DNA of 64,000 bases from assembly GCF_028714775.1 (NCBI RefSeq), contig NZ_JAQTLS010000005.1, positions 161,573 to 225,572 on the forward strand, read 5' to 3'. Origin of the DNA: Thiothrix sp. (lineage in GTDB: Bacteria > Pseudomonadota > Gammaproteobacteria > Thiotrichales > Thiotrichaceae). The notes beneath the pieces were generated by a model. It was not told the DNA's origin. It made no database searches and was given only the letters and a program-made list of their open reading frames with translations. Both the position numbers and the translations under genes were made by a program. Below are positions 31,867 through 63,800 of this stretch, piece by piece (the first letter of the stretch is position 1; every line of letters starts with the position of its first letter).

Positions 31867-31880
31867 CTGATTTACATCAA
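31867..31880. promoter_or_regulatory. FNR box upstream of fnr
   Basis: Read on the minus strand, TTGATGTAAATCAG matches the FNR consensus TTGAT-N4-ATCAA at 9 of 10 positions. It lies 87 bp before the fnr ATG and 75 bp before the divergent DUF3149 start, so autoregulation of fnr is likely. Confidence 0.75.
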
Positions 31881-31966
31881 GAAAACGATTGCCTCATGCG
31901 ATTTACAGGGATGGTGAGGTAACTATCTTGCAAGTCGTTGACAATTGTCACGGTTCGGGACAACAC

Positions 31967-32719
31967 ATGAAGACAGTGCCAGTACAGACAACCAAAAAAT
32001 CAGCCGTTGCTTGCCACAATTGTAGCTTGAGCGAACTCTGCCTTCCCCGTGGACTCACCCGCGAGGAGCTTGAGTTGTTGGAAAATGCCATCAACAAAAC
32101 AGTAAAAATCAAGAAGAAAGATTACCTGTTTCACCGTGATGACCAACAACACTCCATTTTTGCCGTCAAGGCAGGAGCCGTCAAAACGTCCCTTTCCACC
32201 CCCGATGGCGAAGAACAGATACTGGGCTTTTACCTGCCGGGCGATTTACTGGGCTTTGATGCCTTCGCCAACAACCGCCACACCTGTGACGCACAAGCAC
32301 TGGACGACACCTTAGTCTGTGAACTCAACATGGACAGTTTTCAGGAATTATGCGGCAGACTGAGCAGCATGCGCGGGCAAATGATGCGCCAGATCGGTGC
32401 TGAAATCGAACGTGAACACATGCTGCTGCTGACCTTAGGGCAAATGCGCACTGAAGAACGGCTGGCAACTTTCCTATCCGGCTTGTCAGAGCGCAATAAG
32501 GATCGCGGCTTTTCATCCACCGAATTCAACCTGCCGATGGCACGCCACGACCTCGCCAACTACCTTGGCATGGCCGTAGAAACCCTCAGCCGCATGTTTT
32601 CCCGCTTACAGGAAGAAAACATCATCGTGGTGCAGCATCGCCTGATCAAAATCCAAGATATGGAGCGCCTCAAACAATTGGCGCACCACACCTGCCGTCC
32701 AGCCAGCGACGTGCTCTAA
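31967..32719 (+). CDS. fnr: FNR, oxygen-sensing transcription regulator
   Basis: 250 residues from the ATG at 31967; the track's extra 26 residues upstream do not look like FNR. It switches gene expression on loss of oxygen through a 4Fe-4S cluster. The N-terminal ligands are in CHNCSLSELC and the central one in NNRHTCDAQAL. A cAMP-binding-type beta-roll (FLPGDLLGFDA-like GFYLPGDLLGFDAFANN), a dimer helix and a C-terminal helix-turn-helix with FNR-type recognition (ANYLGMAVETLSRMFSRLQE) follow. FNR boxes stand before this gene, hemN and the cco operon in the window, giving it local targets. Confidence 0.96.
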   Translation: MKTVPVQTTKKSAVACHNCSLSELCLPRGLTREELELLENAINKTVKIKKKDYLFHRDDQQHSIFAVKAGAVKTSLSTPDGEEQILGFYLPGDLLGFDAFANNRHTCDAQALDDTLVCELNMDSFQELCGRLSSMRGQMMRQIGAEIEREHMLLLTLGQMRTEERLATFLSGLSERNKDRGFSSTEFNLPMARHDLANYLGMAVETLSRMFSRLQEENIIVVQHRLIKIQDMERLKQLAHHTCRPASDVL

Positions 32720-32729
32720 ATAAGAGCGC

Positions 32730-34115
32730 TTAAATAACGCGCGAGAAACGTTGCTGAGCACCCTGCTTACGCAGGCCGACATCAAATACCATGCAAATGT
32801 TACGGATCAAGAAACGCCCACGCGGCGTTACCTCAATACCACCGTCAACAAAACGCAGCAAATCATCACCTGCCATCGGTTGCATCAATGCCAACTCAGT
32901 TGCGAAATATTCGGCAAAGTTCACATGGTATGCCCGTTCAATTTGCGCAAAGTTCAGGCTGAAATGGCAAGCCAGTTGCTGGATAATTTCCCGCCGCAAG
33001 ACATCATCCTCATCCAAGGTAATGCCCCTAACAACCGGCAAATGCCCCGCATCAATCGCAGCATAGTATTCATCAAGCGTTTTGACGTTCTGGCTGTAGC
33101 ATTCCGCCACACTGCTGATGGAGCTGACGCCCATCGCCACCAGATCACAATCTGCATGGGTGGTGTAGCCTTGGAAATTGCGGTGCAACGTTCCTTGGCG
33201 CTGGGCAATCGCCAGTTCATCATCCGGCTTGGCAAAGTGATCCATGCCGATGTATTCGTAGCCTGCCGAGGTCAGGTGCTCAACTGCCAATTGCATGATT
33301 TGTAATTTAGTTTCACCCGATGGCAAATCATCATCATTGATACGCCGCTGCGCCTTAAACAGGTTGGGCAGGTGCGCGTAGTTGAATACCGAAATGCGGT
33401 CTGCTGACAACTCAATGATGGTATCCAGCGTCTGGCGGAAACTTTCCACTGTCTGGAATGGCAAACCGTAAATCAGGTCGACACTGACAGATTTCGCCCC
33501 GTATGCACGGCACGCCTCAATCACCGCCTTGGTTTGTTCAATCGGCTGGACGCGGTTAACGGCGACTTGCACACGCTCATCCACATCCTGCACACCCAGA
33601 CTGAAACGGTTGAACCCGATTTCACGCAGCACGCCAATCGTTTCCGGGGTGACTGAACGCGGGTCAATTTCAATCGAGTAATCGCCTTCGTCGGTAATGT
33701 GCAGGGAAAAGTGTTCCCGCGTTTTTTCCATCAGCGCACGCATTTCGTCATGGCTGAGGAAGGTGGGCGTACCGCCGCCCCAATGCAATTGCTCTACCAA
33801 GCGGTCGCGGTCATACAGGCGCGACTGCATCTCGATTTCCCGGAACAGGTAGGTGAGGTACTTTTCAGACAGCGAACGGTCTTTAGTGGCGATTTTATTG
33901 CAGGCGCAGTAGAAACAGACGGTATCGCAGAACGGAATGTGGAAATACAGTGACAACGGCAACGGGATTGGGTCTTCGTTGCTCATGTAGGCATGTGCCT
34001 TGTATTCGTCCTCAGTGAATGGCCCGAATGCAACCGCCGTCGGATAAGACGTGTAGCGCGGCCCTGCCGTGTCATACCGACGAATCAAATTTGCATCAAA
34101 CTGGACTGTACTCAT
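32730..34115 (-). CDS. hemN: Oxygen-independent coproporphyrinogen III dehydrogenase
   Basis: 461 residues. Radical SAM enzyme converting coproporphyrinogen III to protoporphyrinogen IX for haem synthesis without oxygen. The ATG at 34115 follows AGAGGTTGGT; the track's 16 extra residues are rejected. The cluster motif Cx3Cx2CxC is in FHIPFCDTVCFYCACNK, with the upstream YTSYPTA, GGGTPTFLS and the long HemN-specific C-terminal domain. A perfect FNR box lies 93 bp upstream, so it is probably induced at low oxygen, fitting the haem need of the nearby cbb3 oxidase and octahaem cytochrome. Convergent with fnr, 10 bp apart. Confidence 0.96.
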   Translation of the reverse strand: MSTVQFDANLIRRYDTAGPRYTSYPTAVAFGPFTEDEYKAHAYMSNEDPIPLPLSLYFHIPFCDTVCFYCACNKIATKDRSLSEKYLTYLFREIEMQSRLYDRDRLVEQLHWGGGTPTFLSHDEMRALMEKTREHFSLHITDEGDYSIEIDPRSVTPETIGVLREIGFNRFSLGVQDVDERVQVAVNRVQPIEQTKAVIEACRAYGAKSVSVDLIYGLPFQTVESFRQTLDTIIELSADRISVFNYAHLPNLFKAQRRINDDDLPSGETKLQIMQLAVEHLTSAGYEYIGMDHFAKPDDELAIAQRQGTLHRNFQGYTTHADCDLVAMGVSSISSVAECYSQNVKTLDEYYAAIDAGHLPVVRGITLDEDDVLRREIIQQLACHFSLNFAQIERAYHVNFAEYFATELALMQPMAGDDLLRFVDGGIEVTPRGRFLIRNICMVFDVGLRKQGAQQRFSRVI

Positions 34116-34207
34116 ACCAACCTCTTTTGCACCCAATCGGGGGTGAATACATAAATGCTGCATGTGCTGCTCAAATGCAAGCCTCTGGCACGAAAGATCA
34201 CACTAAG

Positions 34208-34221
34208 TTGATATGCATCAA
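34208..34221. promoter_or_regulatory. Perfect FNR box between hemN and the sRNA candidate
   Basis: TTGATATGCATCAA, an exact match to TTGAT-N4-ATCAA. Being symmetric it could activate both hemN (minus strand) and the short transcript on the plus strand. A start at about 34256 would place it at -41.5, the class II activation position. Confidence 0.88.
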
Positions 34222-34255
34222 GAAAGTGTCAGCTCATGGATTGTATCCCATACGG

Positions 34256-34386
34256 AAAATGGGTCTAATGAACCTTGGAAGCTGTTGGCATCGATGTTCG
34301 TTACCTCCTCTGGTCGGCAGTTTCCATCAACGCTCTACATACCCTAAAGCATTAGGCTCTCACTTTTTCGAGAGCCTTCTTTTTTT
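34256..34386 (+). ncRNA. Candidate FNR-activated small RNA (FnrS/AniS-like in setting)
   Basis: No ORF, but a perfect FNR box upstream at the class II distance, a TATCCC -10-like element near 34244-34249, and a strong intrinsic terminator ending at 34386 predict an RNA of about 130 nt. It contains a single-stranded-looking CCTCCTCT (34304-34311), the type of sequence trans-acting sRNAs use to pair with ribosome-binding sites. FnrS of enterics and AniS of Neisseria are FNR-driven sRNAs of similar size, but I see no sequence homology I can claim. The start is estimated from the box position. Confidence 0.6.
34355..34386 (+). terminator. Intrinsic terminator of the sRNA candidate
   Basis: GGCTCTC (34355-34361) pairs with GAGAGCC (34370-34376), followed by TTCTTTTTTT. 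The U-tract is on the plus strand only, and no plus-strand gene lies between the hemN start and here, so it must end a non-coding transcript. Confidence 0.85.
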
Positions 34387-34502
34387 CAGAATCCCACAAC
34401 TGATACAGGCCATTGACAGCTTGTAACTGGTCAGGTTCCGTCCTCTAGCCCCAAGAGCGCGATATTAACTTGCTGGCGGCAACAGCACAAACCGCTGAAC
34501 GG

Positions 34503-36256: not shown

Positions 36257-36877
36257 TTACTTATGCTCCTCTTCGATCTCTTCCCAGCCCGTGATCATGG
36301 TTTTGATGTGCGCAAATACCGTATGCCCGGTGGTGGTGAGGTAAATGTGGGCAATAATGAATATCAGGAACATGAATGCCCCCGCCGTGTGGACAAACGC
36401 CACCACATCTAATGGCAGGTAGCCACCCAGCCAAGTTGGTTGCCACACACCGTAAAACAGGTAGAACAAGCCCGACCCCCAAACCAGCGGTGACATCAGC
36501 GACAGTACCGCCAAATATGCCAAGCGTTGCAGTGGGTTGTGCTTGTTGTCCGTGGTTTTCTGGTAGGGGTTAGGCGCATGGACAAAGATGCCGTAAGTGT
36601 AATACTTAATCATCGCATCCACCTTTTTCAGGCTAGGGATGTAATGCCGCCATTCCCCCGTCGTGAACTGCCAAAAGATCGTGAATGCCCACAGCACCAG
36701 CAACGCCCACGCCGCATAGATATGGTATTCCACCGCCGTTTTGAAGCCCCAAAATTCATACGTGCCGTGGACTTCAAACCCCGTAAACAGCATGAAAAAA
36801 ATCAGCCCCGCCTGCGACCAGTGCCAAAAGCGTTCATAGCCTTTGTAAAGGTAAATTCTGTTCACCACCGCTGACAT
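36257..36877 (-). CDS. Membrane cytochrome b (thiosulfate-reductase/hydrogenase type)
   Basis: 206 residues from the ATG at 36877. A cytochrome b561-type four-helix dihaem protein: His-containing TM segments around RFWHWSQAGLIFFMLFTGF, VEYHIYAAWALLVLWAFTIF, VAFVHTAGAFMFLIFI and AHIYLTTTGH. Such subunits oxidise quinol and pass electrons to a periplasmic partner. Its start overlaps the end of the octahaem cytochrome gene by 16 bp, so the two very likely form one quinol-linked reductase. Confidence 0.85.
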   Translation of the reverse strand: MSAVVNRIYLYKGYERFWHWSQAGLIFFMLFTGFEVHGTYEFWGFKTAVEYHIYAAWALLVLWAFTIFWQFTTGEWRHYIPSLKKVDAMIKYYTYGIFVHAPNPYQKTTDNKHNPLQRLAYLAVLSLMSPLVWGSGLFYLFYGVWQPTWLGGYLPLDVVAFVHTAGAFMFLIFIIAHIYLTTTGHTVFAHIKTMITGWEEIEEEHK

Positions 36878-38601
36878 GCTAGCCCCCTCTTTTTCCTGCT
36901 GACGCAAATAGTGCGCAATGCACCGTGGATAATGACACCGAGCAAAGCAAGTATCGCCGCCGCCCAGCCAAACATATCGAGGTATTTATTACCATCAACC
37001 CCCGGCATGTACACCCCGCCGATGCCCTTCAAACGGCTTTCTGCCTGATGGCATTGGGCGCAAGCCAAGGCATCACCTTTAGGTGCAACCATGTGGGCAA
37101 TCGGCCATGACATTTCCGTGCTAACAAAATCAAACTTGCCGCTGTAAGGCATTTCAGCGCTCGCCATGCCTGCGGTAATCGCTTTTTGCCAATCAAAGTT
37201 GTGCCACAATGCTGTTTCATCTTCGCCCGCCGTATGCACATTAAGCAGATAGCTGAATTCCTTGTCGTAAGCCTGTTTGCCCCGATGCACCTTGAAAGGC
37301 CAAATGCGCGAATCTGCTGCCCCTGCTGTCCCTTCCGGTTGGTTGATATTGACGGTTTTACTGGGGTCGATCTTGTCACCACGAGCGCTGTAATTCATGT
37401 CGCCATTGAACCACTTGTATTCGGGAATCAAGTAAGAATCCCACACGAAAGTTCCTTTCTTGGAGTCGAAAGCCCGCCGTCCGGCACTGTCTTTGGTGGC
37501 AATCGGTTTACCTTCTGGCCCCATCTTTGTGGCAGTAGACCAATCCCACGATTTTTCAGTACCCACACCGCCACGCGCATATTCGGGAATATGGCAGGTC
37601 TGACAAGCCAACTTATCGGTATGGGCATTCAGTTGCCCCATCAATAACGGATTTTGCTGGTGCGGTTTATCACCGTGGCAAGACTGGCAAGAGGCCGGAT
37701 TCTTATCGTCTTTAGCACCACGGGTATGTGCATTCCCCGTCATGACTGCGGTCACTTCGTAACGGCTACCGGAGACTTTATGCTCATCCGTTTGGTGGCA
37801 CGTGGTACAACTGAAGTTCAAGCCCTGTGCATCCATGTGTACGTCGAGGTACTTGCCCGGTTTTTTCAAGGAACTGTCCAAATCACCGTGCTTCGTGCCA
37901 TCGCCGCCCGCACCGTAAAAATGGCAAGAACCGCAGTTGGCACGGTTGGGCTTAGCAACCAATTGCGCAATCATTTTCAGGTCTGCCGCTTCCACAAACT
38001 TACCGGAATCTTTGGGGAATTCCTTGCGCTCGTACACCGGATGCCCCGCATCCCCCGGCAGCTTGCGGTAAGTCGCGGTACTGTCATGACAAACCAGACA
38101 ATCCACGTTCTTTTCATTTTTAAAATCGAAGTGCTTATCCTGCCAACCGTAACCCGCGTGGCAAGCCATGCAATCTTTTTCGTTGGAAATGGCGCTGGTG
38201 CAGAAGTTGTTGATGACATTCTTCTTACCCAATTTCTTGCCGGACTTGTCGATGTATTCCCACGTCCAATGCTTGGTTTTCATGACGTGTTTGGCGGCTT
38301 CGGTGTGGCAGGTCAAGCAGGCTTCGGTCACTTCAGGGCCAGACTTGAAATCTTTTTGCAGCGCTTCAAACCTGCTGTGATCAGCCGTGGTGTGGTCTTT
38401 GTTCGCCATTGCTGCCGTCAACGGTGGTGTTGCAGGCGGCGCAGGTGTGGCGGGTGTTGGTGGTGCAGGCTGTGCCGCTACTACCGCTGTCGGAGCTGGC
38501 GCGGGTACTGCCGTCGTTTTAGGGTCATCAGCAAATGCCACCGACGTTACCCACGCCAACATCAAGGGAAGCAATAATCCCCGTGCGTATAACCACTGCA
38601 T
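36862..38601 (-). CDS. Octahaem tetrathionate-reductase-type cytochrome c, C-terminally anchored
   Basis: About 579 residues. The third of three tandem ATGs has the best spacing to GAGGAG. Signal peptide, then an Ala/Pro linker (about 30-65), then eight CxxCH haem sites in order: CLTCH, CMACH, CLVCH, CGSCH, CTTCH, CQSCH, CQTCH, CAQCH. The segment NNFCTSAISNEKDCMACHAG resembles the active-site region of OTR of Shewanella, where a Lys ligates the catalytic haem. OTR reduces tetrathionate, nitrite and hydroxylamine in vitro; the true substrate is uncertain. Unlike soluble OTR it ends in a TM helix (AAAILALLGVIIHGAL), fitting a membrane complex with the cytochrome b encoded next. Confidence 0.88.
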   Translation of the reverse strand: MQWLYARGLLLPLMLAWVTSVAFADDPKTTAVPAPAPTAVVAAQPAPPTPATPAPPATPPLTAAMANKDHTTADHSRFEALQKDFKSGPEVTEACLTCHTEAAKHVMKTKHWTWEYIDKSGKKLGKKNVINNFCTSAISNEKDCMACHAGYGWQDKHFDFKNEKNVDCLVCHDSTATYRKLPGDAGHPVYERKEFPKDSGKFVEAADLKMIAQLVAKPNRANCGSCHFYGAGGDGTKHGDLDSSLKKPGKYLDVHMDAQGLNFSCTTCHQTDEHKVSGSRYEVTAVMTGNAHTRGAKDDKNPASCQSCHGDKPHQQNPLLMGQLNAHTDKLACQTCHIPEYARGGVGTEKSWDWSTATKMGPEGKPIATKDSAGRRAFDSKKGTFVWDSYLIPEYKWFNGDMNYSARGDKIDPSKTVNINQPEGTAGAADSRIWPFKVHRGKQAYDKEFSYLLNVHTAGEDETALWHNFDWQKAITAGMASAEMPYSGKFDFVSTEMSWPIAHMVAPKGDALACAQCHQAESRLKGIGGVYMPGVDGNKYLDMFGWAAAILALLGVIIHGALRTICVSRKKRGLACQRW

Positions 38602-38649
38602 CATCATCTCCTCACTTTAGTTACGCCCAATCACCAGGTATGCTGCCAC

Positions 38650-43153: not shown

Positions 43154-44587
43154 TTAGTGGGCTGGAGCCGCAATGGCAACATCAACAGGTTTTGCGCCAG
43201 CCACGGTTTTCAACACGTTGTAGAGCATGATAACCATGCCTGACACCACGAGGAGACCGCCCAAGAAGCGCACGAAGTAGAACGGATAAGTGATTTTCAG
43301 CGATTCAATGAAGCTGTAAGTCAATGTACCGTCTGCGTTCACTGCACGCCACATCAAGCCTTGCATAACACCAGAAATCCACATGGAAGCGATATAAAGT
43401 ACGACACCGATAGTCGCAACCCAGAAATGGATTTCGATCAGCTTGGTGCTGTACATGCTTTCACGCCCGAACACTTTTGGAATCAGCGCATACAAAGAAC
43501 CGACAGAAACCAGCATTACCCAGCCCAAAGCGCCGGAGTGGACGTGGCCTACAGTCCAGTCAGTGTAGTGTGACAGTTCGTTAACGGTTTTGATTGCCAT
43601 CATCGGGCCTTCAAAGGTAGACATACCATAGAAAGACAGGGAAACAATCAGGAAGCGCAGGATAGGGTCAGTACGCAGTTTGTGCCATGCACCGGAAAGC
43701 GTCATAATGCCGTTGATCATACCACCCCAGCTTGGAGCCAGCAGGATCAGGGAGAACACCATACCCAAAGATTGGGTCCAGTCTGGCAGCGCGGTGTAGT
43801 GCAGATGGTGAGGGCCTGCCCACATATAAGTAGAGATCAATGCCCAGAAATGCACAACTGACAAGCGATAAGAATAAACCGGACGGCCTGCCTGCATCGG
43901 AACGAAGTAGTACATCATCCCCAAGAACGCTGCTGTCAGGAAGAAACCAACCGCATTATGCCCATACCACCATTGCACCATAGCATCAATCGCGCCAGGG
44001 TAAACAGAGTAGGACTGGAGCCAGCTTCCGCCAAACAGGGCAATTGGCAACTCAGCGTTATTGACCAAGTGCAGCAATGCAATTGTCAGGATGAACGCAC
44101 CGTAGAACCAGTTCGCCACATAAATGTGGGAAGTCTTGCGCTTCATGATCGTACCGAAGAACAGGATAGCGTAAGCAACCCAGACTACAGTGATCAACAA
44201 GTCAATCGGCCATTCCAGTTCTGCGTATTCTTTGGAAGAAGTGATCCCCAACGGCAGGCTAATCGCCGCCAGCAGGATAACCGCTTGCCAACCCCAAAAC
44301 ACGAAAGCAGCCAGTTTGTCAGAGAGCAAACGGGTATGACAGGTACGCTGTACAACATACAGCGAGGTCGCAAACAAAGCAGAGCCACCGAAGGCAAAAA
44401 TAACTGCATTAGTATGCAATGGGCGTAAACGACTGTACGTCAGCCACGGAATATCAAAATTCAATTCCGGCCAACGTAATTGTGCGGCGATGAGCACGCC
44501 CACCGTCATACCGACGATCCCCCAGATCACCGTCATGATGGCAAACTGCCGCACGACCTTGTAATTGTAGGTCTGCTGGTTCTCCAT
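43154..44587 (-). CDS. ccoN: cbb3 cytochrome c oxidase catalytic subunit I
   Basis: 477 residues, about twelve TM helices. Haem-copper oxidase of the high-affinity C family. The metal ligands lie in [17 protein letters not shown] (low-spin haem), [16 protein letters not shown] and [13 protein letters not shown] (CuB), and [13 protein letters not shown]. It heads ccoNOQP, whose products respire at low oxygen. FNR boxes at 44707 and 44767 and a perfect palindrome at 44649 lie upstream. Confidence 0.97.
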
Positions 44588-44706: not shown

Positions 44707-44720
44707 TTGATTAAAGTCAA
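44707..44720. promoter_or_regulatory. FNR box upstream of ccoN
   Basis: TTGATTAAAGTCAA, 9 of 10 to TTGAT-N4-ATCAA, 120 bp before the ccoN ATG. It supports FNR activation of the cbb3 operon at low oxygen. Confidence 0.8.
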
Positions 44721-58018: not shown

Positions 58019-60814
58019 CTAAATCCGAAACACCTTCATCACCTCATCCCCCAAATGGTTGATCACCTTCACCGCGATCCGCCCTGACTGCGGCTTTTTG
58101 AACGGGCGGGAAACGTCGCTGTTGAGCGTTGCCCATGCTTCTTCGTTGATTTCGGCCTTGAGGGTGGTTTTGAGTGCCTTGTACGGGTCATTTGCGCCGA
58201 GGAAATAGGCGTGGCGCACGAAGAAACTTTCTTCGTTGTAGTCGGTGTCGATGAACCAGCAGGCGATGCCGTCAGCATTGTCGCTGATGACTTCGCCGGT
58301 TTGGGGTTTGAATACGTCCACGCCGTTGACTTTGACTTGGATGCGGTTGCTGCCTGCGTCGAGGATGTCGATGTCGGGTTCGCCGAAGATGACGAATAGG
58401 TTGCCTTTGCCAGTGTTTTTGAGGTCTTCCGCCATGTGCAGGTCGGCGTTCATGCGGGCTTTGAGTACCGGGATGCGCCCCAGTTTGTGGAATTCGGCGG
58501 AATGCGCGTCGTAGTTGAAGGCGCAGGCAATCAGCACGTCGAATCCGGCGTCACCGGCTTCGCGGGCAGCTTGTACCAGATCGGGGCGCGAGACTGTGCC
58601 GAATTCGGGGCCGATGAAAATGGCGGCACGGCGTTCTTCACCGCCGTCGGTGTTGCCTTCGAGGTAGCGGCCTTCGGCGCAGATCAGGTCGCCCGGCCAA
58701 GGTTGCAGGCTGATGAAGTTGATTTTGTCTTCTTTGTGCGCTTGCTGGACTCCGGCGGTTTTGAGGTTTTCGAGGATAATCTGGGCGAAATCGCGAGCAT
58801 CCGTGTAGCCACTGGCGGATTCTTTGACGCCATCCATCAGTTCGTCGTTTTCGTCCACGCCGAGGACGCGGTGGGGGGAAAGGCTTTCGACGGTGAATGG
58901 CCCGGCAACGCGCACTTTGCTTTTGTCGTCATAGGGTTTGTCGTAGAGGTATTCGTAGTCGGCTTTGGCGGCGATGGAGGCGTCGATTTCCTGCTGGCGG
59001 GCAATGCGGTGTTTCCACCAGTCGGCGTGCAGTTGTTTGGCGGCTTTTGACCATTTCTCATCGGCTTCGCGGGGGATTTCCCATTCCTGCCAGTCTTGCT
59101 TTAGGGTGGTGTTGAGTTGTTGGCGCAGGGGTTCGAGTTTGGCTTGGTGGTTTTCCCAGATTACGTCGATTTCGGCGTTGTTGGCGATGGCTTTGAGGGT
59201 GATGTGGGGGACGCGCTCGTAGACGAAGCCTTGGCGGATGTTGCCGTAAGTGGGTTTGCTGGCGGGGATAGTGCGGGTGATGTCGGCTTCTTTTTGTTGG
59301 CCTTCGGGGGAGTCGGCTAGCAGGTAATAGGGGTAGCGTGCGCCCATGATGCGGGCGCGGGCTAAGGCCAGTGCTACCCGTGAGGTGTCCACCGTGATCC
59401 AGCGGCGACCCCATTGCTCCGCCACGTATGCGGTTGTGCCGCTGCCGCACGTCGGGTCAAGCACCAAATCCCCCGGATCAGTCGTTATCAAGATGCATCT
59501 TTCAATAACTTTACGCACAGTTTGAACAACATAAAGTTTGTCATCACCAAACCCTCCTGTACGGGTGTCTTCCCAAATATCCGAACTAGACTTGAACGGG
59601 AAATCATTGAAGTAGCGGATAAAATTAAGACTGCGCCCAATTGGTAATAGTCGGTCTGCTAATTCCAGCTTTTTTAGACCGGTGAGATTTGTACTGAATG
59701 TGCGGTTTCCTGGTGAATAAGAAGTGCCCTGAAACGTATAGCTTTGAAGGTCATTGGCATTTTTTGACCGAGCACTTGTCAATGGATTCGGACGATAAAC
59801 ACGTGAATTAGGTGGTGGTTCTGCCACACTCGAAATTTCTTCGCTTGTTAGATTACGACGAGTGCCGTCTGATAGTTCAACAAATCGAATGTTAACTTCT
59901 GAACGCCAGTTTCTTGGCTCGTAGGAATTCCGAAACTTAACCTCTTCGCGACGTTTTGCGAACCAAAGCAGCAGATCTGTGGTTACATCCAGAAGGCCGC
60001 TTCCTTTACCAGTAGTTTTACGAAAAACGATTTGTCCGCAAAAATTTTCATCGCCGAAAACTTCGTCGAGGACGGCGCGGACGCGGTGGACGTTTTCGTC
60101 GCCGATTTGGACGAAGATAGAGCCGGAGTCGGTGAGCAGGTCGCGGGCGACGGTGAGCCGGTCACGCAAGTAGGTGAGGTAGGAGTGGATGCCATCACGC
60201 CACGTATCGCGGAAGGCTTTGACCTGTTCGGGTTCGCGGGTGATGTGTTCCTTGTTGCCATCCTTCACGTCGCGGCTGGTGGTTGACCACTGGAAGTTGG
60301 AGTTGAATTTGATCCCATACGGCGGATCAAGGTAAATGCACTGCACCTTGCCGCGCAAGCCCTCACGTTCCGCCAGCGATGCCATCACTTGCAAGCTGTC
60401 ACCCAGAATCATGCGGTTCGTCCAGTTGGCATCATGCTGGTAGAACTCGGTGCGGGCTTCCTCACTCGGCACGCCATTGAAATCGGCAAACAGCTCAAAC
60501 TGGTTCTCCGCTGCCTTGTCATCCTGCCCGCTACGCCGCAGCAAGTCATCAATCAGCACCTTCGGATGCACCTTGTCCTGAATGTACAACGGCGGCGCAT
60601 TCACCACCAGATCAGACCAATCCTGCTCATCCTTGCCCCGCCACACCAATTGCGGATCAAAGTCACGGTTACGCCGCTCATACGCGACCCGCACCGGATT
60701 GGCCTCGTCCTGACGCATCACCGACTGGTATTCAGCGGTGGGGATATTTTTGCGCGTGGCCTCGGTGTGCTTGAGGGCAGAAACGGTTTTTTTGTCTGAA
60801 GGTTGTTGTGCCAT
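58019..60814 (-). CDS. mod: Type III restriction-modification DNA methyltransferase
   Basis: 931 residues from the ATG at 60814 (AGGA upstream). Beta-class N6-adenine methyltransferase: motif IV DPPY (CIYLDPPYGIKFNSNFQ) comes before the target-recognition region, and motif I follows it (LVLDPTCGSGTTAYVAEQWG). Larger than a classic Mod (about 650), with an extra C-terminal third. It gives the sequence specificity of the Mod2Res complex. The target-recognition segment (about residues 275-450, DNA 59470-59990) is visibly more AT-rich than its flanks. It follows res by 4 bp. Confidence 0.93.
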   Translation of the reverse strand: MAQQPSDKKTVSALKHTEATRKNIPTAEYQSVMRQDEANPVRVAYERRNRDFDPQLVWRGKDEQDWSDLVVNAPPLYIQDKVHPKVLIDDLLRRSGQDDKAAENQFELFADFNGVPSEEARTEFYQHDANWTNRMILGDSLQVMASLAEREGLRGKVQCIYLDPPYGIKFNSNFQWSTTSRDVKDGNKEHITREPEQVKAFRDTWRDGIHSYLTYLRDRLTVARDLLTDSGSIFVQIGDENVHRVRAVLDEVFGDENFCGQIVFRKTTGKGSGLLDVTTDLLLWFAKRREEVKFRNSYEPRNWRSEVNIRFVELSDGTRRNLTSEEISSVAEPPPNSRVYRPNPLTSARSKNANDLQSYTFQGTSYSPGNRTFSTNLTGLKKLELADRLLPIGRSLNFIRYFNDFPFKSSSDIWEDTRTGGFGDDKLYVVQTVRKVIERCILITTDPGDLVLDPTCGSGTTAYVAEQWGRRWITVDTSRVALALARARIMGARYPYYLLADSPEGQQKEADITRTIPASKPTYGNIRQGFVYERVPHITLKAIANNAEIDVIWENHQAKLEPLRQQLNTTLKQDWQEWEIPREADEKWSKAAKQLHADWWKHRIARQQEIDASIAAKADYEYLYDKPYDDKSKVRVAGPFTVESLSPHRVLGVDENDELMDGVKESASGYTDARDFAQIILENLKTAGVQQAHKEDKINFISLQPWPGDLICAEGRYLEGNTDGGEERRAAIFIGPEFGTVSRPDLVQAAREAGDAGFDVLIACAFNYDAHSAEFHKLGRIPVLKARMNADLHMAEDLKNTGKGNLFVIFGEPDIDILDAGSNRIQVKVNGVDVFKPQTGEVISDNADGIACWFIDTDYNEESFFVRHAYFLGANDPYKALKTTLKAEINEEAWATLNSDVSRPFKKPQSGRIAVKVINHLGDEVMKVFRI

Positions 60815-60818
60815 GTGT

Positions 60819-63800
60819 TTATTCCTGTCCCTGTTTGCCCACAATGCTGGTATTGATCATGCTGTCGAATTCCGTTGCAATTTTTTGTGCGAAATCTTCT
60901 TCCATCCCCCACACGTCGCCAAATTCGGCAAACGCCCAGCGCCCGTAACGCTTGAGGTTGTTGACTCCCGGAACCCAGTAGTTTTCCATCGTCGCCCGCT
61001 TTTCCTTGGCATCTTCACGCCGGTAGCCCTTGATCTCGACAATCAGGTTCAGCGGGTCGGCTTGCCCGTCATCCACCAGCACGATGAAATCGGGGATGTA
61101 GGTGCGCCGGGTGGAACCGTACTGGTAGGGCGCTTCCAGTCCCAAATTGTGGTTCTTGACGTAAGCGATGACACGCGGGTGCGCTTCCACCACCCGGCAG
61201 AATTCGCCCTCCCAATCGCTGTCGAGGATTGCCCAGTTGACGTGGCAATGCTGCGGGCTGGTTTCCCAGCGGTCGGTTTTGGCGGTGTGAAAACTGACGT
61301 GCGCGGTGGAGCCGGTCGGGTTGTAAGCATCCAGCATGGCCTTGACCGGGCGTTCCCCGACCATTGCCCGCGTGATCCCGGCAGTGATGCGCTCGCAAGC
61401 CATGTCCGCCAGTTCCTGATACATCAGTTGCGCCGGGTACGTGCCGCCCTTGCACACCAGATAGCCATCCAGCCATTGCTTGGCGATGCGCTTGAGTTGC
61501 CCGAACAAATGCAGTTTCGGTTCTTCGCCGGGGTCGCGCCACTTGGTGTACAGCAGCCGTTTGGTCAGGTTCATCAACAGGGTGGAATGGCGCATGTCGC
61601 CCAGATGCTTGAGGTTCAAATCCACTGCTTCGCCAATGATGCCGGAATTGCGGGTAATGGATGGCCCGACCAGTGCTGGCGTCAGTTCCAGCAGCGAATC
61701 TTCGTTGAAGGTGGCGCTGAGGCGTTCTTCCGGCAATTCGACCCGGTAGCCTTCCACCCGTGGGAAGGTGATAGCCAGCGGGTTGCGTGCCGGGCTGATC
61801 GCCTTGACGTGGATGGTTTCACGCGGCGGTTGCGGTTTCACCACCACCGGCTTGGCAGTGAAATCAAACGGAATGCCCAGCACGTCGGCATATTCCACGT
61901 TGAACAGGCCATCCGCATTCAGCTCATACGACTGGCGGCGCAAGGCACGGCCTATCACCTGTTCGCACAACAATTGCGTGCCGAAAGCGCGTACCCCCAG
62001 CACATGCGTGACGGTGTTCGCGTCCCAACCTTCGGTGAGCATCGAAACCGACACCACGCAGCGGATGGATTCGCCCAGCCGCCCTTGCTTGCCCACGGTG
62101 TTCATGACCTCGCGCAGCAAGTCCTGATCGGTGATGTTTTCCGCCCCTTTGTGGTCGCCACGCTCGCGCATGTCGTAGCGGAAACGTTCGATTTCATCCC
62201 CCGCCATGCTGCGGAAATTGGTATCCAGTGCATCACCAGATTCGAGTTGCTCGCTGTCGATCAGCAGGGTATTGGGACGTGGCAGCGGGTTGCCATGTGC
62301 GTCGTAGTTCCTGAACAGTGCCAGCCGCCCGTTTTCCAGACTGCTGGAACCGTCATCATTGTCACGCTGGAAACCGGCAATGAAGTCATACACCAGCTTG
62401 GAAGTGGAGGTGTTATTGCACACCACAATGAAACAGGGCGGGACGGTGATGCCACTCTCTTGCCACAAATGGAAGGTTTTTTCGTAATGCCCGTACAGGG
62501 CTTCGAGCGCAGTCTGCAATTCCACCGGCAGGCTGAGCGGGTCAAGGGTATTGGCTTTGCCCCGGCCTTTTTTCGGCATTCGGGTGCGGATATGCGTCCA
62601 CAAATCGCGGAACTTGGGCATTTCGCCGCCGGGGATATTGTCCGACACCGGCACGCGCGGCAGTTTAACAATGCCGCATTCAATCGCATCCATCAGCGAA
62701 AAGTCGCTCATTGTCCACGGGAACAACGTGCCTTCGGCATAACCGGAACCACGCAGGAAAAAAGGCGTGGCGGACAAGTCCATCACCCGCAGCACACCCA
62801 GCTTGCGCTTGATCGCTTCCAGCCCGGAAATCCACAGGCGGGCAGCTTCGTTGTTTTTCTGTGCCTCGGTTTTGTCTTCACCCTTCAAGGCGCTGAGGTC
62901 GTCTTCGCCCGGCTTTTCGCGGTAGCAATGGTGCGCCTCGTCATTCAGCACCATGATATTTTTCATGCCCATCAGTTCCGGCATAACCCGCTGCAACATC
63001 TGGCCTTCGGTTTCCTGCGTATTGAGCGGCTCGCCTTTGCGCCCCTGAAGCAGCAAGCGCCCGCCTTTGGAAAGCTCCATGCGTTCGCGCAGCTTGAAAG
63101 CATGGTAGTTGGTAATGACAATTTTGGCGCGTTCCAGATCGGGCAGCATGTCGCCCGGAACCAGTTCACGGCTCTGGTAATAGCTGTACGGGTCATTGGG
63201 TTGCAACACTTGCAAGCGGTCACGGATGGTCAAGCCCGGTGCGACAATCAGGAAACCACGGGTGAAACGTTTGCTGTTGGGGTAACGTACCGCATTGATG
63301 GTCTGCCACGCGATCAGCATCGCCATGACGGTAGTTTTGCCTGCCCCGGTAGCCAATTTCAGCGCCAGTCGCAGCAGTTCGGGGTTGGCTTCCTGATTCG
63401 CACCTTCCAGATGATCCAGAAAATAGCGGCCTTTGTTGCCAGAAGTCGGTGCGACTTCCAGCAGCCAGATGGCTGTTTCGACCGCTTCCACCTGACAGAA
63501 AAACGGGCGGATGCTGTTGAATTCGTGGGAACGCCAATGTTGCAGCAAACGAGCGGTTTCTGGTGTCACCTTCCAGTCTTTTTGCGGGAGTTTGCGCCAG
63601 TCATCCACGTACTTGCGCAATTCATTGATCAGCGAAGTCGGATCGTATTTTTGTCCCTGACTTGCCAGCTCTGGTATATCAAACAGTAAATCTTGCTGGG
63701 GCGCGGCATCTTTGCGTTTTTTGGGCTTAGGGATAGGGGTAATGAAATCGGCACGGCGACGGGCTTCAATGGTTTTCTGGGTGGGCTGGCCTTGATCATC

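Follow-up and report, generated by a model that had tools for sequence, protein, structure and literature searches.

A putative FNR-linked small RNA divergent from hemN in Thiothrix

The hemN-divergent locus

The window, the whole 64-kb stretch of Thiothrix DNA analysed here, carries hemN as the divergent neighbour of a predicted small RNA (sRNA), with fnr, encoding its likely regulator, close by. The features of the locus are as follows.

31889..32719, + strand: fnr, likely regulator (NF008365 Fnr, 245 bits versus a cut-off of 228; Pfam CRP/FNR domains)
32730..34115, − strand: hemN, oxygen-independent coproporphyrinogen III oxidase (start codon 34115; TIGR00538, 613 bits)
34208-34221, no strand assigned: FNR box TTGATATGCATCAA, perfect consensus, probably common to the sRNA (+) and hemN (−)
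34240..34249, + strand: conserved promoter element ATTGTATCCC, with candidate −10 TATCCC at 34244-34249 (TAAACC in most relatives)
34256..34386, + strand: predicted sRNA, about 131 nt, conserved in 16/16 genomes
34277..34289, + strand: stem 1, 5' arm of a 13-bp hairpin
34300..34311, + strand: loop core GTTACCTCCTCT, anti-Shine-Dalgarno-like, conservation 0.98
34313..34325, + strand: stem 1, 3' arm, pairing with 34277-34289
34329..34351, + strand: invariant linker AACGCTCTACATACCCTAAAGCA, mostly single-stranded, identical in 16/16 genomes
34354..34386, + strand: intrinsic terminator, hairpin plus T-run

The fnr product, containing CHNC-x5-C cysteines and probably starting at the ATG at 31967, is classed as a true Fnr by NCBIfam. 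Hfq is also encoded by the host genome (PF17209, 102.5 bits).

Across the window, seven FNR sites with at most one mismatch are observed versus 2.2 expected. A one-mismatch box, CTGATTTACATCAA (31867-31880), sits just upstream of the fnr frame, raising possible autoregulation, and another, TTGATTAAAGTCAA (44707-44720), lies upstream of a − strand gene (43154-44587), apparently the ccoN gene in a cluster for a cbb3 oxidase. At 36257-38607, an octaheme tetrathionate-reductase-family cytochrome (TIGR04315) adjoins a cytochrome b subunit, near cbb3/FixG genes.

FNR box, promoter spacing and sister-genus homologues

The box at 34208-34221 is the sole occurrence of TTGATNNNNATCAA without mismatch in the window, matching the perfect FNR box described in an earlier note on this DNA, and its pattern TTGA[TC]NTG[TC]ATCAA is kept in all 16 Thiothrix genomes. 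With the sRNA start placed at 34256 from the −41.5 spacing and its end taken from the terminator, the box centre (34214.5) occupies the class II position and TATCCC (34244-34249) spans −12 to −7. The class II spacing to a −10-like element claimed in that note is therefore recovered; the hexamer is weak, however, matching TATAAT poorly, and a generic sigma-70 scan made no promoter call at 34244-34249. Mean pairwise conservation over the 16 genomes is 0.89 for the promoter element (34240-34249) versus 0.59 for the spacer.

Distances from the box to ATTGT (18 nt) and to TAAT (44 nt) are constant in 16/16 genomes, whereas the distance to the hemN start varies between 83 and 96 nt. Fixed spacing on the sRNA side with loose spacing on the hemN side is the pattern expected of a box held by RNA polymerase contact at the sRNA promoter. 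A hemN promoter at constant distance from the box, followed by a variable leader, is a possible alternative source of the fixed spacing.

Reading the sequence upstream of hemN, combined with a motif pattern, located a diverged homologue in two genomes (G068 and G069) of another genus in the same family. Both are divergent from hemN as in Thiothrix, with a different downstream gene, and carry a C-rich loop ACATCCTCCTCC and a terminator. They have ACATACCCTAAA in common with Thiothrix, extending to the longer GCTCTACATACCCTAAAG in G069, where linker identity reaches 18 nt, making the linker the best-shared part; the sister-genus homologues (L041, L066, L067) place extra hairpins before it. In each genome the FNR-like box near hemN is accompanied by a second, sRNA-proximal one. 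The sRNA-proximal boxes (ATGATCTACGTCAA or GTGACCTACGTCAA) depart from the strict consensus and precede TAACAT or TAATAT by 23 nt, a class II spacing with the centre at about −42.5. Because covariance models R1 (terminator mis-paired) and R2 give these homologues no significant score, homology rests on synteny, linker, loop, terminator and box. A motif search of 369 genomes across the class found no further homologue, two other matches being judged chance from their sequence.

FNR-like boxes also lie upstream of hemN in many genomes of other genera without the sRNA, so the Thiothrix box is probably common to hemN and the sRNA. The same distribution, along with the weak −10 element, would suit a real, trans-acting sRNA with a constitutive or otherwise controlled promoter, the box serving hemN only. 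We consider this arrangement unlikely, since all 16 Thiothrix genomes combine a constant spacing towards the sRNA with a loose one towards hemN, and the sister-genus genomes carry an additional, sRNA-proximal box; fixed spacing and sRNA-proximal boxes instead support FNR control of the sRNA.

Fold, conservation and coding potential of the predicted RNA

Box, promoter and terminator frame a predicted transcript of 131 nt, close to the roughly 130 nt proposed earlier, which folds at −38.7 kcal/mol (z = −3.4; 0/200 shuffles as stable). Stem 1 covaries: compensatory changes occur at nine of 13 pairs, with 96.4% of cells paired in the 16-genome alignment. This covariation exceeds all 500 shuffles (0/500 reach it), a control that ignores the relatedness of the genomes, and all slid controls, which preserve it. 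The C-rich stretch CCTCCTCT (34304-34311) lies inside the loop of the 13-bp hairpin, where single-sequence folds form mostly just a few weak pairs, leaving the motif in an unpaired loop. The terminator, AGGCTCTC-8-GAGAGCCT followed by TCTTTTTTT, is predicted on the + strand only and ends at 34386; among relatives its stem sequence varies while the hairpin and T-run are retained. The exposed C-rich stretch and the one-directional terminator put forward in the earlier note are borne out, and the hairpin, for which that note proposed a covariation search in relatives, does covary. Covariation was also sought in an outer helix, GGGUNU/AUACCC, and none was found, so this helix is not claimed.

One-base insertions in the loop segment 34290-34312 (alignment A2 columns 43 and 60) divide the genus into loop-length types.

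Conservation is established by sequence comparison, as are the covarying stem, the terminator, the fixed promoter spacing and the non-coding character of the locus; the flanking DNA diverges. By blastn, the sRNA region is present in 15/15 other Thiothrix genomes and in 0 of 24 other relatives searched. Box, loop and terminator, whose poor conservation the earlier note had named as grounds for giving up the sRNA, are all retained in 16/16 genomes. Mean pairwise identity in these genomes is 0.98 for the loop core and 0.99 for the 23-nt linker versus 0.28 for downstream DNA. The 19-mer CTCTACATACCCTAAAGCA occurs in just six contigs of an 84,980-species collection, all apparently Thiothrix (five titled as such, one a gammaproteobacterial MAG).

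The linker, not singled out in the earlier note, is the most conserved segment and, as noted, the part best shared with the sister genus. Both properties would fit a real, FNR-linked sRNA that works mainly through its linker, as target seed or protein site, with the loop secondary, or one that titrates a protein or RNA. The loop is also near-invariant, though, and matches the soxX start region, and our search found neither a linker target nor a linker-binding protein; we judge linker-driven action improbable and retain the loop as the likely pairing element.

Conserved intergenic DNA serving hemN regulation alone, with no transcript, would suit the position upstream of hemN but is very unlikely in view of the covarying hairpin, a strand-specific terminator kept despite stem changes, and conservation reaching far past the box, away from hemN.

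The earlier note recorded no open reading frame (ORF) at the locus. A 135-aa + strand ORF (34019-34426) mechanically overlaps the sRNA; it was rejected as a coding gene, as Pfam recognises nothing in it and relatives do not preserve the reading frames. That the locus encodes a small protein is scarcely credible: many genomes have a short frame beginning at a loop ATG (ATGTTCGTTACC), but a one-base insertion disrupts it in several, C-termini differ, several genomes lack such an ORF, and substitutions track base pairing.

Relation to known sRNAs and candidate targets

To our knowledge, few lineages have a described sRNA under the control of FNR. One such sRNA, FnrS, is FNR-controlled in enterobacteria. 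It is described as an intergenic, terminator-ended sRNA that represses aerobic functions (Durand and Storz 2010; Boysen et al. 2010, as cited in PMC8595263). The predicted Thiothrix sRNA would likewise be intergenic, terminator-ended and FNR-linked, but has another hairpin and other pairing motifs. No Rfam family, FnrS included, reaches its gathering threshold in the 64-kb window; a permissive search returns only RF00519 suhB/mmgR, whose 13.6 bits (gathering score 41; E = 2.8) are no better than chance. AniS, or gonococcal FnrS, of Neisseria is produced under oxygen limitation (PMC5362039), as predicted for the Thiothrix sRNA; Neisseria is distant from Thiothrix, and the sequences were compared through Rfam only.

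Anti-Shine-Dalgarno motifs in unpaired regions, as the Thiothrix sRNA exposes, also occur in the Alpha-r14/NfeR1 sRNAs of rhizobia (PMC10746234) and the NmsR sRNAs of Neisseria (PMC5362039). In Alpha-r14 the motifs are ultraconserved and the stems divergent (PMC10746234), a pattern repeated in Thiothrix; Alpha-r14 differs in having three CCUCCUCCC hairpins, against one CCUCCUCU loop and its own invariant linker in the Thiothrix sRNA. The literature searched (open-licence papers) contained no description of an sRNA in Thiothrix. Predicted to work like FnrS and AniS, and matching no catalogued family, the RNA represents a putative new sRNA family.

We compared the loop and linker with 387 start regions from 461 kb (a batch of about 397 kb plus the window, ~11% of the genome), picking ORF starts by a simple rule. 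Over these regions, neither element showed an overall pairing gain relative to shuffled versions, and long complements of the linker revealed no conserved target. The longest loop complement belongs to soxX (TIGR04485), which sits in a sox gene cluster: 11 contiguous bp (AGAGGAGGUAA), with the next at 9, soxX being the best of the sample and chosen after inspection. A complement of at least 8 bp is present in 13/16 genomes by direct count, or 14/16 with G004, where a genus-wide pattern search finds GAGGAGGTAACCATG beside the soxX match; the site pairs poorly in G005 and G008. Other genes of the same sox loci offer 4-6 (soxY) and 4-8 (soxZ) bases complementary to the loop. Because seven bases of the soxX site (AGGAGGU) are an ordinary Shine-Dalgarno sequence, the 16 genomes are related and the match was noticed post-scan, soxX is only a candidate.

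The reading we favour, and hold to be probable, is a trans-acting sRNA of ~131 nt, FNR-activated at low oxygen, whose loop represses translation at ribosome-binding sites, with soxX as best candidate target. We infer that the RNA is expressed when Fnr, encoded about 1.5-2 kb away, activates its promoter from the class II site at −41.5 under low oxygen, and that transcription runs divergently from hemN to the terminator. The RNA would present an anti-Shine-Dalgarno loop GUUACCUCCUCU and the invariant linker AACGCUCUACAUACCCUAAAGCA; the loop would pair with ribosome-binding sites, most likely repressing translation, probably assisted by Hfq. The sRNA is thus probably turned on at oxygen depletion, and a sulfur-oxidation mRNA is perhaps blocked. 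A fuller version remains tentative and rather doubtful: a family restricted to Thiothrix and one close sister genus, coupling FNR oxygen sensing to shutdown of thiosulfate oxidation through occlusion of the soxX ribosome-binding site, with the linker providing a second module for pairing or protein binding.

An FNR-linked sRNA without FnrS homology in filamentous sulfur oxidisers would point to an independent origin of the circuit, and soxX, if truly a target, would provide a direct link between oxygen sensing and sulfur oxidation. The two conserved elements, loop and linker, yield specific predictions open to mutation.

A further sox-cluster start (G000:C2:60160, probably soxA) ranks eighth in the loop scan. 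Within the sox cluster L174/L175 (G000:C2:58422-61882), the soxY-soxZ pair is duplicated, with near-identical copies at 59361-60140 and 61103-61882.
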